Part shown: positions 1-6,847 of the stretch, piece by piece
How the letters are laid out: every line of letters begins with the position of its first letter
Numbering within the stretch: the stretch's first letter is position 1
DNA from: an uncultured Bdellovibrio sp.
GTDB taxonomy: Bacteria; Bdellovibrionota; Bdellovibrionia; Bdellovibrionales; Bdellovibrionaceae
NCBI GenBank assembly: GCA_946482355.1
Contig: CAMLRE010000113.1
Location: 1 to 7,099 of the forward strand
Length of the DNA: 7,099 nucleotides
Reading direction: 5' to 3'
Made by a program: the position numbers and the translations under genes
Notes under the pieces: model-generated
Database searches by the model: none
What the model was told of the DNA's origin: nothing
What the model saw: the letters and a program-made list of their open reading frames with translations, nothing else

Positions 1-356
1 AGCATATCGAGCGCACGAGTTTATTCGTTCACATCGTAGATATTTCGGGAATGTCTGGCCGCGATCCGGTTCAAGACTTTCAGGATATCAATTTTGAAAT
101 CGAAAAATACGATGAAATGAATAAAGATAAAGACGGGTTCTTTCCGTTATCAGCGCGCAAACAAATCGTTGTATTTAACAAGATCGATTTATTATCAGCT
201 GACCAAATTGAAAAAACAAAACAGACATTCAAGAAAAAATTTGGTGTCGATGGTTACGCCATTTCCGGCGTTACAGGAAAAAACATTAATGAATTACTTC
301 AGGCGATCGCTGAAAAAGTGATGGCTTCGAAAAATGGCGAAGAAGAACAAGGGTAA
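1..356 (+). CDS. obg: Obg-family GTPase, C-terminal part (5' end outside window)
   Basis: The frame is open from the left edge (first full codon at 3), giving 117 codons to the TAA at 354-356. It begins with HIERT followed by HIVDISGMSGRDP, the signature that follows the G3 region in Obg/CgtA GTPases. The G4 guanine-specificity motif NKID is at 177-188 and the G5-like ISGVTGKN starts at 261, where the usual SA is SG. Obg is a GTPase of 50S ribosome assembly and stress control. The N-terminal glycine-rich Obg fold and the G1-G3 motifs lie upstream, so about two thirds of the protein is missing. It ends in a short charged tail (NGEEEQG) straight after the G domain, so there is no OCT domain. 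An internal ATG at 51 is not the real start because the conserved sequence continues upstream of it. nadD follows after 5 nt. Confidence 0.93.
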   Translation, partial: HIERTSLFVHIVDISGMSGRDPVQDFQDINFEIEKYDEMNKDKDGFFPLSARKQIVVFNKIDLLSADQIEKTKQTFKKKFGVDGYAISGVTGKNINELLQAIAEKVMASKNGEEEQG

Positions 357-361
357 AAGAA

Positions 362-1381
362 ATGAAAATCGGTATTTTCGGGGGAAGTTTTAATCCTCCA
401 CACAATGGCCATGTTAACAGCTTAACAACAGTTCAAAAGAAAATGGGTTTTGATAAAATCCATATTATTCCTAATAGCCAGAACCCGTTAAAAGTTCCCA
501 CAGAAACAGCTTCTGATGAACATCGTTTAGCGATGGCTAAATTAGCTTTTGCTACTTACGGCGATGCTTTTTTCATTGATGATATCGAATTAAAACGCGG
601 TGGCAAAAGCTACACAATTGATACAATCAAAGAATTACGCAAATCTTACGAATCAAAAGATTTATATTTAATTATCGGTGCTGATAACTTTGAAACTTTT
701 AACGAGTGGAAAGACTTTAAAAAAATTCTTTCTGAAGTAAACCTAGTTGTTACAACTCGCCCGGGTTATCAAATTCCTGAAACTGAGTCTGAATTTCCAG
801 CGTACTTATCAGGTTTAGTGGCTGAAAGCGATTTCGGTGCAGTTGAATTAACAACTGGCCGTTCAATCGAGTTCTTAACTTTACAAGACATGGACATTTC
901 TTCGTCTGAATTACGCAAAAAATTACGCGTAGGCCGTCCTGTAGATAAGTTTTTACCACTAGCAGTAGAAAGTTATATCAAAGAACATAAACTTTACCGC
1001 CAAGCGAATCAAAAAATCAGCGATTACGAAAAATTCACTGAGTTTTGTGCTCAGGTTCTTTTTGATAAAAAAGGTATCGCGGTTCGCGGTTACGATATCC
1101 GTAACAGCTCAACAACAACTGACTTTACATTAATCGCTTCTGGTACAAGCACTCGTCACGCGGCTTCTATGGCTGAAAACTTAGTTCAAGCTGTTAAAGA
1201 AGAATTCAACGTTTACCCATTAGGCGTTGAAGGTGTTGATGAAGGTCGTTGGGTGGTTGTGGATTACGGTCCATTAATCGTTCACTTATTCTACGATTTC
1301 GTTCGTCAAGAATACCGCATGGAAGAACTTTGGAAAGACGGTAAGGAATTTAAACTTACTGATAAAACTGGCCAAAAATAA
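362..1381 (+). CDS. nadD-rsfS: Fused nicotinate-nucleotide adenylyltransferase (NadD) and ribosome silencing factor (RsfS)
   Basis: One 339-codon frame carries two proteins that are normally separate. Residues 1 to about 213 are NadD: the nucleotidyltransferase motif GGSFNPPHNGH (7-17), the IGADNF...W stretch (105-117) and the ISSSELR signature (179-185). NadD transfers AMP from ATP to nicotinate mononucleotide in NAD synthesis. After a short linker, residues about 219-330 are RsfS (YbeB/DUF143): TTTDFTLIASGTS (251-263), the LGVEG...GRWVVVDYG block (287-303), and VHLFYDFVRQEYRMEELW (307-324). RsfS binds ribosomal protein L14 and blocks 30S-50S joining. No stop, frameshift or internal start with a clear ribosome site separates the halves. 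The ATG at 362 has AGGG about 8 nt upstream (350-353). rlmH begins 2 nt after the stop, which suggests translational coupling. Adjacency of nadD, rsfS and rlmH is common; the in-frame fusion is the unusual part. Confidence 0.93.
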   Translation: MKIGIFGGSFNPPHNGHVNSLTTVQKKMGFDKIHIIPNSQNPLKVPTETASDEHRLAMAKLAFATYGDAFFIDDIELKRGGKSYTIDTIKELRKSYESKDLYLIIGADNFETFNEWKDFKKILSEVNLVVTTRPGYQIPETESEFPAYLSGLVAESDFGAVELTTGRSIEFLTLQDMDISSSELRKKLRVGRPVDKFLPLAVESYIKEHKLYRQANQKISDYEKFTEFCAQVLFDKKGIAVRGYDIRNSSTTTDFTLIASGTSTRHAASMAENLVQAVKEEFNVYPLGVEGVDEGRWVVVDYGPLIVHLFYDFVRQEYRMEELWKDGKEFKLTDKTGQK

Positions 1382-1383
1382 TT

Positions 1384-1854
1384 ATGAAAGCCGTTCTATT
1401 TGACTTTAAAACAGCCAAAGAAGAATGGTTTGATCTTGCGGTTGCGACCTACACTAAAAAATTAAATCCGTTTATTCCGTTTGAGGTGATTTCGCTGAAA
1501 TCATCAAAAACGGATCGTGATGATGCCGCCGCTAAGAAAAAACAAGAATCAGAAGATTTATTAAAAAAAATCACCAACGATGATTATGTGATCTTATTTG
1601 ATGAAAAAGGCAAAGACCTAGATTCACTCCAATTTTCAAAACAAATCGAAGCCGCGCAAATGTCTGGTAAAAAACGTTTAGTATTTATTATTGGCGGGGC
1701 GTTCGGCGTATCTGATGATATTAAAAACCGTGCCCAGCTTAAGGTTTCACTCTCAAAAATGGTGATGAACCACTTGGTTGCAGAAACTGTGGCGCTTGAA
1801 CAAATCTACCGCGCGTTTACCATCATTAAACGCATTCCTTATCACAATATTTAA
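1384..1854 (+). CDS. rlmH: 23S rRNA (pseudouridine1915-N3)-methyltransferase RlmH
   Basis: The 156-residue product has the usual length of RlmH (YbeA/SPOUT family), which methylates pseudouridine 1915 in helix 69 of 23S rRNA using S-adenosylmethionine. Visible family blocks are LFDEKGKDLDS (71-81), the SAM-knot segment FIIGGAFGVS (101-110), SLSKMVMNH (122-130), EQIYRA (139-144) and the C-terminal PYH (152-154). The region usually reading H-x-L-x-R is HLVAE here (130-134), a small deviation. The ATG lies 2 nt after the nadD-rsfS stop with no convincing Shine-Dalgarno sequence, so it is probably translated by coupling. In most bacteria rlmH sits directly after rsfS, as it does here after the fused gene. 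Confidence 0.95.
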   Translation: MKAVLFDFKTAKEEWFDLAVATYTKKLNPFIPFEVISLKSSKTDRDDAAAKKKQESEDLLKKITNDDYVILFDEKGKDLDSLQFSKQIEAAQMSGKKRLVFIIGGAFGVSDDIKNRAQLKVSLSKMVMNHLVAETVALEQIYRAFTIIKRIPYHNI

Positions 1855-4695: not shown

Positions 4696-5829
4696 TTAGT
4701 GGATTCCAGCGCATTGCTGGATGCCATGGTAGTACGCCGTAGAAGCCTTCATTTTCGCGGCTTCTAGGGGGGCCTGAGCTTCTCTAAAGCGAACCGCCGA
4801 AGACTTATCTAACTGGCAGGCTTTAATGAAATACGGTAAAGCCTCGTCATAACGTAAAAGTTGATATAACGATTGAGCAGCGCCTAACTGGGCGCGGCCT
4901 GATTTGGGCTCAACCACTGTGGCGTCTTTAAAGGCCTCGATCGCTTTACCGTAATTTTTTTGTAAATAAAAAACCTCGCCTAAACAAGTTAAAGCAAATT
5001 CGTTTTTTTCTATCTGGGCTGATTTTTCAAATTGCTTTTGCGCGTCTTTATAATTCATACGTTCACGCTGAGAAATGCCTAAGTAAATTAAAGCTAAGTT
5101 ATCTTTTGGAAACGCTTTAATTACTCGAGGACAGACAACATCAACTTCACCGTGATTTGAATCTTCTGTTTCTAAAATGCAAAGATCTAAAAGATATTTG
5201 TTCACATTTTTTTTGTCGATCTTCATTGCGTCTTGAAGGGCACTTTTAGCTTCAAATAAATTTCCGAGTTTACGATAAACACGAGAGTATTCGGCTAAAA
5301 CGATCAGGTCATTTTTGCTGTCATCAGTGATCGAATCCAAGATTGAAAGTGCATCACGGTATTTACGGTCAGCTGTTAAGATTCGAGCCTGTAAGGCTTT
5401 ATCCTGGGGAACTGTCAGTAATGATTTGTTTTCAATAACCATTGAACGAGCTTCTTTGGTGTGACCTTCGTTAATTAAAAAATCCACCATCGGTTCAAAA
5501 TTGGCGAAAGTTTTTTTCGCATTAAAGGTGGTTTTGAAAGGTTCAAGAGCCATTTGAAATTCAGACTCAGAAAGAAAAGATTTAAACTCAAGCGGGGCAC
5601 GACAGTAAGATTGATACTCATAATATTTGCCACTGACGGGAGCCGAAGTGATGGCTGGTCGGCCAGAGCCATTTTGAACAGGTTGTGCTGCTCCTTGGGG
5701 GGCTCCGGGACTAAAAGAGGGAACGGTGACTTGGGCTGGTGGCTGAGGTTGTGTGGTGGTCTGGGCCTGTGCCAGATTGATACAAATTAAACAAATACAA
5801 ATAGAAAAAACCAATAAAAATCGTCTCAT
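4696..5829 (-). CDS. Secreted TPR-repeat protein of unknown function
   Basis: From the ATG at 5829 the product has 377 residues. It starts with MRRFLLVFSICICLICINLAQA, a typical signal peptide with likely cleavage after AQA (residue 22) and no lipobox, so it is probably periplasmic. Residues about 23-66 form a Pro/Gln/Gly-rich linker. The rest is helical, with at least three clear tetratricopeptide repeats at about 243-276, 277-310 and 311-344 (YLGISQRERMNYKDAQKQFE and CLGEVFYLQKNYGKAIEAFK type) and a weaker one near 173-206. Six cysteines remain in the mature part, which could form disulfides. The frame also offers TTG (5841) and GTG (5838) starts. GGTGA (5839-5835) is 5 nt before the ATG, while AAGGG (5849-5845) would serve the GTG, so the start is uncertain by 3-4 codons. 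TPRs bind proteins; no partner can be named. It diverges from the prepilin-like gene; TadD of Flp pilus systems is also a TPR protein, but homology is not shown. Confidence 0.85.
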   Translation of the reverse strand: MRRFLLVFSICICLICINLAQAQTTTQPQPPAQVTVPSFSPGAPQGAAQPVQNGSGRPAITSAPVSGKYYEYQSYCRAPLEFKSFLSESEFQMALEPFKTTFNAKKTFANFEPMVDFLINEGHTKEARSMVIENKSLLTVPQDKALQARILTADRKYRDALSILDSITDDSKNDLIVLAEYSRVYRKLGNLFEAKSALQDAMKIDKKNVNKYLLDLCILETEDSNHGEVDVVCPRVIKAFPKDNLALIYLGISQRERMNYKDAQKQFEKSAQIEKNEFALTCLGEVFYLQKNYGKAIEAFKDATVVEPKSGRAQLGAAQSLYQLLRYDEALPYFIKACQLDKSSAVRFREAQAPLEAAKMKASTAYYHGIQQCAGIH

Positions 5830-5846
5830 ATTTTTCACCAATTGCC

Positions 5847-5862: not shown

Positions 5863-5890
5863 TTCATAGGTGAAACAAGAGCTAGAACAA
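5863..5890 (-). promoter_or_regulatory. Weak candidate promoter for the TPR gene
   Basis: Read leftward, TTGTTC (5890-5885) is followed after 16 nt by TATGAA (5868-5863). The start would fall near 5856, giving a leader of about 27 nt to the ATG at 5829. The -35 matches the consensus at only three bases. The -10 ends next to the GTG start of the rightward gene. Confidence 0.2.
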
Positions 5891-6847
5891 AAAACAAGAC
5901 GTTCAATTTTGCGAGCACGCAAAATCGGCTTCGTATTGCGTGGTCGAAACAGCGGTCAGGCTGTGGTCGAATACATTCTTATTGTTTCAATCGCCGTAGC
6001 TATCATTTTTATTATGAAGGGTGCCTTCAGTGGCATGAGTAACTTCATCGATAATTATTTAGGAAAATATACAGAGTGTCTTATGGCGTACGGCGAGTTG
6101 CCAACATTGGGTATCAGAAATGATGACTTAAAAAAACACTTAAGCTCAGATTATAAATGTGAATCAGGTTTTAAACCTTTCACTGTAGCTGAAGGTCGAC
6201 CACCGATTGCCAATGGCAGTGCTGCTGGTGGCAGTAGTAAAAATAGCAACGGCAAAGGAAATTCGAATTCCAATAATTCATCGAATTCAAACGGAAGTTC
6301 CAGTGATCCGTCTTCAGCTGAAGCTGGCCGCGGTGATAGAGATGCTGTAGGCGGTAATGGTAGCGGTGGCAGTAACAGTGATCAGAATGCGAATACAAGG
6401 CCGCGCCGTGCAGGGCGAGGAACAGCAGATGGTATCGCCGGTGGTGATGGCAATCAGCGTTTGATCGAAGAAGAGGGCGACGAAGAAGGTGGCCGCGGGC
6501 GTAAAAGAAAGCCTCGTGAATCACGTATTATTTACAGAGATAGACCGCGTTATCGCGCCGTTCTGGGTGATGAAGCGGAACAAATTACCAAGCAATCCTC
6601 GCGTAGCTCAATTAGTCGTAAACCGACCTCACGTTCTATTGCTAAAGCCGAAGGTGGAAGCCTTCCTGGCCCACGTTCGGGCTTAATGCGCCCACCCCCT
6701 GAAAAAGTGGCGTATGTGGAAGAAACTAAAGACGAAGGCTGGGGATTTGGTAAGATCATCAAGTGGATCTTTATTATCGGTATGATCGTAGCTCTTGTAA
6801 TCTTTTTCGGGGGACAATTGCTCGGTTACTCGAATTCCGACAGCTAG
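5870..6847 (+). CDS. Flp/TadE-type prepilin-like protein with disordered middle and C-terminal membrane helix
   Basis: The 325-residue product has a basic leader (RR, RAR, RGR) ending at G29, then QAVVEYILIVSIAVAIIFIM. With G at -1 and E34/Y35 at +5/+6 this matches the prepilin peptidase site of Flp pilins and TadE-like pseudopilins, followed by the usual hydrophobic helix (about 36-52). Two cysteines (C70, C97) flank a small domain. Residues about 110-280 are low complexity: Ser/Asn/Gly-rich (114-145), then acidic (199-206) and Arg/Lys-rich (206-260). A second membrane helix (about 297-315, WIFIIGMIVALVIFFGG) precedes a short polar tail. Typical Flp pilins are far shorter and have one helix, so this is an atypical, perhaps anchored, family member; its function is unknown. 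The start is GTG at 5870, directly after an in-frame TAG, with only a weak AAG ribosome site; TTG codons at 5909 and 5936 are alternatives that shorten the leader. Confidence 0.85.
   Translation: MKQELEQKTRRSILRARKIGFVLRGRNSGQAVVEYILIVSIAVAIIFIMKGAFSGMSNFIDNYLGKYTECLMAYGELPTLGIRNDDLKKHLSSDYKCESGFKPFTVAEGRPPIANGSAAGGSSKNSNGKGNSNSNNSSNSNGSSSDPSSAEAGRGDRDAVGGNGSGGSNSDQNANTRPRRAGRGTADGIAGGDGNQRLIEEEGDEEGGRGRKRKPRESRIIYRDRPRYRAVLGDEAEQITKQSSRSSISRKPTSRSIAKAEGGSLPGPRSGLMRPPPEKVAYVEETKDEGWGFGKIIKWIFIIGMIVALVIFFGGQLLGYSNSDS

Follow-up and report, generated by a model that had tools for sequence, protein, structure and literature searches.

We report that the 7,099-nucleotide stretch of DNA analysed here from an uncultured Bdellovibrio sp. 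(contig CAMLRE010000113.1; hereafter the window) encodes a single protein in which nicotinate-nucleotide adenylyltransferase, NadD, an enzyme of nicotinamide adenine dinucleotide (NAD) synthesis, is fused to the ribosome silencing factor RsfS. The nadD::rsfS fusion occurs in single copy, has intact motifs in both halves, is fixed in the class that was surveyed (presumably Bdellovibrionia) and has a single origin on the domain trees. The product is probably a constitutive bifunctional protein in which NadD and RsfS are tethered 1:1, and which arose once in this class.

The fused gene starts with ATG, ends with TAA and encodes 339 amino acids with no internal stop. A sequence-only reading of this DNA had proposed that NadD and RsfS share one uninterrupted frame, and this was borne out by the open reading frame (ORF) itself and by the Pfam and NCBIfam searches, in which PF01467 matched residues 5-186 (E 1.7e-25, far above the gathering cut-off) and PF02410 matched residues 229-324 (E 1.1e-23, 83.7 bits against a cut-off of 21.6, profile positions 3-98 of 98). 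The two identities were likewise confirmed, with the protein passing the equivalog cut-offs of both TIGR00482 for NadD (179.8 against 112.45 bits, model positions 1-194 of 194) and TIGR00090 for RsfS (85.7 against 56.9 bits, profile positions 3-99 of 99). RsfS is usually a small stand-alone protein, although membership of the domain family does not depend on this; here it is part of the longer frame. Among 32 PDB sequences recovered at E<=0.001, the best stretches lay either within residues 2-215 (NadD/NMNAT) or within residues 215-331 (RsfS/MALSU1) and none spanned both parts, nor did any single chain among the VIA-align structure rows cover both domains.

The same architecture was recovered from many other genomes. 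A protein search with the window fusion identified 2341 homologues at E<=1e-10, and both PF01467 and PF02410 were present in all of the best 120 listed; both domains were also found in all 120 listed of the 220 proteins identified with a divergent class member. Nine of ten related loci in genome contigs were fused, all of them named Bdellovibrio, Pseudobdellovibrio, Bdellovibrionaceae or Pseudobdellovibrionaceae and including the complete chromosomes CP025734.1 and NZ_CP102930.1. B. qaytius and B. bacteriovorus kdesi, both represented by complete chromosomes, have this in-frame fusion. The tenth locus, from a metagenome-assembled genome of Gemmatimonadota, matched NadD only, and its RsfS is a separate frame of 122 amino acids.

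A class survey centred on genome G002 of B. bacteriovorus kdesi (from L009) identified RsfS in 133 of 143 genomes, once in each, and in 131 of these it was located within a frame of 330-443 amino acids. The other two (G332, 281 amino acids; G324, 109 amino acids) are cut by contig ends, and G332 holds both domains in one frame. In all 80 genomes that were fetched from the 131, a single frame contains both NadD and RsfS; one of these genomes (G005) was also counted among the nine fused contig loci. As for the 10 genomes with no RsfS match, the over-cut-off NadD of G301 is truncated by the end of its contig, the cut in G292 falls within NadD, and the NadD search gave no over-cut-off match in the other eight. 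In a sample of the order, the fusion protein was matched in 58 of 59 genomes. In a NadD search of 59 relatives, 57 have one over-cut-off NadD, always in a frame of 333-406 amino acids (the exceptions being G292 and G293). No intact over-cut-off NadD or RsfS was seen as a separate gene in the class genomes searched.

In the genomes examined from other classes of the phylum, the two genes are separate. RsfS was identified in 259 of 290 genomes in a sample of the phylum, class members included, and from the matches listed we examined 46 loci in 42 genomes of other classes, a non-random set in which 30 are the best RsfS matches and the others were chosen for long frames or spread. Mapping the fusion across genomes, as the sequence-only reading had suggested, gave 80 fused out of the 80 fetched within the class versus 0 out of the 42 examined in the other classes of the phylum. 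Its remark that nadD and rsfS are usually adjacent genes also held: a separate nadD directly precedes rsfS in 38 of the 42 genomes, in another frame in 33 and in the same frame with an intervening stop in 5; in 31 of the 38, a possible rsfS start (ATG or GTG) lies in an overlap with the end of nadD. Two long RsfS frames, in G207 (353) and G142 (328), were considered as independent fusions and rejected, nadD being in another frame. The remaining four genomes (G014, G069, G239 and G185; loci L064-L067) have no nadD near rsfS. Their NadD matches were weak genome-wide, at best 35-64 bits, and they may have a diverged or different nicotinate-nucleotide adenylyltransferase.

Phylogenetic trees were inferred for each domain, with 85 rows for RsfS and 81 for NadD, of which 40 in each are fused and represent every second of the 80 class fusions. 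A single change between the fused and separate states is needed on each tree, and the split was supported by 100/100 for RsfS and 84/93 for NadD (83% of 200 bootstrap trees), in data sets where three genomes are doubly represented among the separate rows and for which the tree program flagged the low number of columns, the long branches and bootstraps that had not settled. The branch between fused and separate RsfS rows is long (0.78) and not assignable to one side. Because the trees require one change only and the genes overlap in relatives, the simplest history would be one fusion in the class ancestor, derived from neighbouring and mostly overlapping genes. Two co-transcribed neighbours would have lost the intervening stop once, usually with a change of frame.

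A second fusion event has probably occurred elsewhere, since P0124, a NadD-RsfS fusion of 363 amino acids, is only 29% identical to the window fusion over 330 amino acids. It was found in a word-limited search for long RsfS proteins, which gave four matches among 102 candidates. In Gemmatimonadota, where RsfS was identified in 200 of 200 genomes, 15 loci with frames of at least 300 amino acids and 5 others were fetched from the matches listed; neither the NadD of the window nor that of P0124 matched any of these 20 loci at E<=1e-4, in a set that held no NadD positive control. The window NadD does match one Gemmatimonadota NadD in the contig search. The rarity of the fusion outside the phylum is not established by these data, which combine a word-limited protein search with a survey of the phylum and Gemmatimonadota. 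Separately, P0123 is a protein of 282 amino acids with an RsfS domain followed by an RlmH domain (PF02410, PF02590), and represents either a further fusion of adjacent genes or a frameshift in the assembly.

Residue conservation was examined in an alignment (A1) of 125 sequences and in a wider set of 91 sequences. The first NadD motif, GGSFNPPHNGH, is presumably the nucleotide-binding and catalytic motif of the enzyme. The patterns that we take to define NadD, (H/T)xGH and ISS(S/T)xxR, are both present, with H14, G16, H17 and R185 invariant among the 125 sequences. In the RsfS half, the four predicted uL14-contact residues E290, W297, D301 and Y318 are each conserved in 125 of 125 sequences in A1 and in 85-91 of the 91 in the wider set. 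They correspond to E70, W77, D81 and Y98, which are the contacts to uL14 in Staphylococcus aureus RsfS according to PMC7125091 and PMC9503621.

These features suggest that the N-terminal half is an active enzyme that would convert nicotinate mononucleotide (NaMN) and adenosine triphosphate (ATP) to nicotinate adenine dinucleotide (NaAD), and that the C-terminal half would bind uL14 on the 50S subunit and block joining of the 30S subunit. RsfS is described as an anti-association factor and a late 50S checkpoint in PMC13246957. The halves would be joined by a short tether of about seven residues and the protein kept intact in the cell. The fusion appears to have been the sole NadD and RsfS of class cells since its origin, and the two activities would therefore be made in a 1:1 ratio. 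When bound to uL14, RsfS would carry along a NadD domain of 24 kDa, the bulk of which may add to the steric block, by analogy with the mitochondrial acyl carrier protein (mt-ACP) in the MALSU1 complex.

Several observations weigh against this interpretation. In the wider set, E290 is replaced by D in 6 sequences, Y318 by F or I in 2, and S181 by A in 28 and by G in 5. A comparison of 80 fused with 63 separate RsfS rows (42 from the phylum, 20 from Gemmatimonadota and one from E. coli) showed that D304 is D in 59 of 63 separate sequences but S or A in 59 of 80 fused, that F256 is conserved in 59 of 63 separate sequences but is T, A or S in 67 of 80 fused, and that L244 is conserved in 60 of 63 separate sequences but is F or Y in 77 of 80 fused. 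Since these positions are conserved in separate RsfS, the activity of the fused RsfS could have shifted. The fused sequences have also gained Y311 (73 of 80), and the class-specific changes could reflect adaptation to the fusion, drift or an altered contact. A near relative, G293, has no RsfS match, and its NadD-like domain is in a different protein. The sequence-only reading placed the linker at about residues 214-220, which agrees with an AlphaFold model where one helix ends at 208 and the RsfS part opens with a helix at 222-235. A rigid, length-selected linker was considered and rejected. The mean identity of the linker to the window sequence is 28%, whereas the domains reach 51% and 57%, and its modal length is kept in 92% of the sequences (84 of 91), as compared to a median of 98% over all 17-residue windows. 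Of the 43 windows that are no better conserved in sequence, its own included, 17 are as constant in length. Because this constancy is ordinary within the fusion protein, the linker gives no evidence of selected geometry.

As a separate observation on G293, its locus L057 (minus strand, 230-1625) encodes a frame of 465 amino acids in which an N-terminal part, exported to judge by eye, precedes a C-terminal NadD-like nucleotidyltransferase domain, which scored 76.8 bits to TIGR00482, below the cut-off.

The strongest of the alternatives, although an unlikely one, is regulatory coupling, whereby occupancy of the NadD site by NaMN, ATP or NaAD would alter the affinity of RsfS for uL14, or the 50S subunit would alter NadD activity, such that NAD status tunes the pool of idle 50S subunits. 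Formulated as a metabolic gate, with occupancy by NadD substrate or product altering RsfS-uL14 binding and NAD state serving as a stoichiometric input to silencing across the whole class, it is just as doubtful. The obligate 1:1 link is maintained throughout the class, where no clear fission was detected, and is consistent with coupling. So are the short tether and the precedent of MALSU1, a homologue of RsfS whose complex includes the metabolic protein mt-ACP (PMC8316566). Against it, AlphaFold predicted two good domains with no confident mutual placement (predicted template modelling score, pTM, 0.63), the linker is poorly conserved and not unusually constant in length, and an irreversible neutral fusion accounts for the retention equally well. 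The link between NAD or nutrient status and 50S silencing, which the sequence-only reading had offered as an inference, found no direct support. The fusion is most likely a plain bifunctional tether, with coupling not favoured over neutral retention.

It is less probable still that the RsfS half is no longer a ribosome silencer and instead serves NadD, for example as a dimerization or localisation module. The substitutions at D304, F256 and L244 and the long RsfS branch would fit such a role, but the uL14-contact residues are kept and the modelled fold is similar to that of ribosome-bound RsfS (root-mean-square deviation 1.2). Marginally weaker again is the suggestion that RsfS is also, or only, produced separately by internal initiation or linker proteolysis. 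The model is less certain in the linker block (predicted local distance difference test, pLDDT, 68), and 53 of the 91 sequences have an in-frame ATG, GTG or TTG at residues 205-233 (ATG or GTG in 34), but no such start is present in the window or in 37 others, and only 3 of the 91 have one behind a Shine-Dalgarno-like stretch, each time a TTG and at three different positions. Absent in some sequences and scattered in others, these codons rule out a conserved internal start; internal initiation, which the sequence-only reading had raised as an objection, found no support in the window. Another of its objections, a hidden stop or frameshift near positions 1000-1020, and with it any joining of two genes by sequencing or assembly error, is practically eliminated by the repeated in-frame fusion in the 80 fetched genomes and two complete chromosomes, and chance and sequencing error are excluded as the source of the fusion.

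The sequence-only reading had also supposed that the fusion suits a predator alternating between starvation and growth, a view that is weakened by the comparison of lifestyles. A putative Halobacteriovorax marinus SJ genome (G014, L064), outside the class, has a stand-alone RsfS with no nadD beside it; H. marinus SJ is an intraperiplasmic predator according to PMC11656739. Within the class, the fusion is found in the intraperiplasmic B. bacteriovorus kdesi and a putative HD100 genome (G079), as well as in the epibiotic B. qaytius and a putative P. exovorus JSS genome (G011). Since RsfS is separate in the putative H. marinus genome and fused in class members of both types, predation alone appears neither to require nor to predict the fusion, which tracks phylogeny rather than lifestyle; a predator-specific explanation is unsupported.

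The fusion gene is flanked by obgE and rlmH (Table 1), which were found upstream in 72 and downstream in 66 of the 80 fetched class loci, respectively. Because the gaps in the window are only 5 nucleotides from the obgE stop to the fusion start and 2 nucleotides from the fusion stop to the rlmH start, the three genes appear to form a single operon.

Table 1. Coordinates of the fusion gene, its domains and motifs, and the flanking genes in the window.
Feature	Position	Strand	Evidence
nadD::rsfS fusion gene	362..1381	+	One frame; Pfam and NCBIfam matches; in-frame fusion in 80/80 fetched class genomes
NadD domain (nicotinate-nucleotide adenylyltransferase), residues 1-213	362..1000	+	
GGSFNPPHNGH motif, residues 7-17	380..412	+	G8, F10, P12, H14, G16, H17 invariant in 125 sequences
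ISSSELR motif, residues 179-185	896..916	+	R185 in 125/125 (A1) and 87/91 (wider set); S180 in 117/125
Linker, residues 214-220	1001..1021	+	pLDDT 68 for block 211-220
RsfS domain, residues 221-339	1022..1378	+	
Predicted uL14-contact residues E290, W297, D301, Y318	1229..1315	+	Alignment to S. aureus RsfS E70, W77, D81, Y98
obgE, 3' part (runs off 5' end of window)	1..356	+	NF008954 ObgE, partial match, profile positions 251-348
rlmH	1384..1854	+	PF02590, 157 bits

Elsewhere in the window, an ORF at 5870-6847 (+) encodes 325 amino acids with no Pfam or NCBIfam match at E<=0.001. Its N-terminal part reads by eye like what is presumably a segment of a Flp/TadE-type pilin (GQAVVEYILIVSIAVAIIF), and is followed by a long stretch rich in Ser, Gly, Asn and Arg and by a C-terminal hydrophobic segment. 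Between rimO and this pilin-like ORF, a protein with tetratricopeptide repeats and, by eye, a signal-peptide-like start is encoded on the opposite strand (4696-5841).

A late step of NAD synthesis and the silencing and late assembly checking of the 50S subunit would thus be permanently combined in one molecule throughout the class of the model predator B. bacteriovorus, and deletion of “nadD” in this class would also remove rsfS. As a naturally occurring system, the fusion would allow any link between NAD metabolism and subunit association to be probed by separating the two halves of the gene. Should coupling be absent, it would serve as a clean synapomorphy that marks the class, and as an example of a gene fusion that is both stable and neutral. 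The databases already hold such two-domain proteins, and the ribosome factor is easily missed, since among the listed proteins with a source name the names checked refer to NadD alone or, for P0139, to RsfS alone. No published description of a NadD-RsfS fusion was found among the literature matches listed.

We compared the window protein to known systems. It resembles NadD (TIGR00482; Pseudomonas aeruginosa 1yum, E. coli 1k4k) in the full-length domain, motifs and fold, but differs by the added C-terminal RsfS domain. It resembles RsfS/YbeB/Iojap (TIGR00090, PF02410) and mitochondrial MALSU1 in the full domain, uL14-contact residues and fold, but RsfS is a separate gene in E. coli and in the 42 genomes of other classes, whereas here NadD is fused N-terminally and the domain has class-specific substitutions. 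NF005519 (PRK07152), a NadD model of 361 positions with a C-terminal extension, matched residues 1-215 with its first 187 positions and scored 158 against a cut-off of 315; since its later half is outside the matched stretch, it represents another architecture. In the obg...nadD-yqeK-lytR-rsfS cluster of Negativicutes and Firmicutes, as given in PMC7549365, nadD and rsfS are neighbours near obg, but separate genes. Lastly, the human MALSU1-L0R8F8-mt-ACP complex of mitoribosome assembly also brings a metabolism-linked protein to the large subunit together with a factor of the RsfS family (PMC8316566), but its components are separate subunits and the partner is an ACP rather than NadD. The functional likeness is only suggested; a metabolic gate in the fusion would in principle be convergent with mt-ACP on MALSU1.
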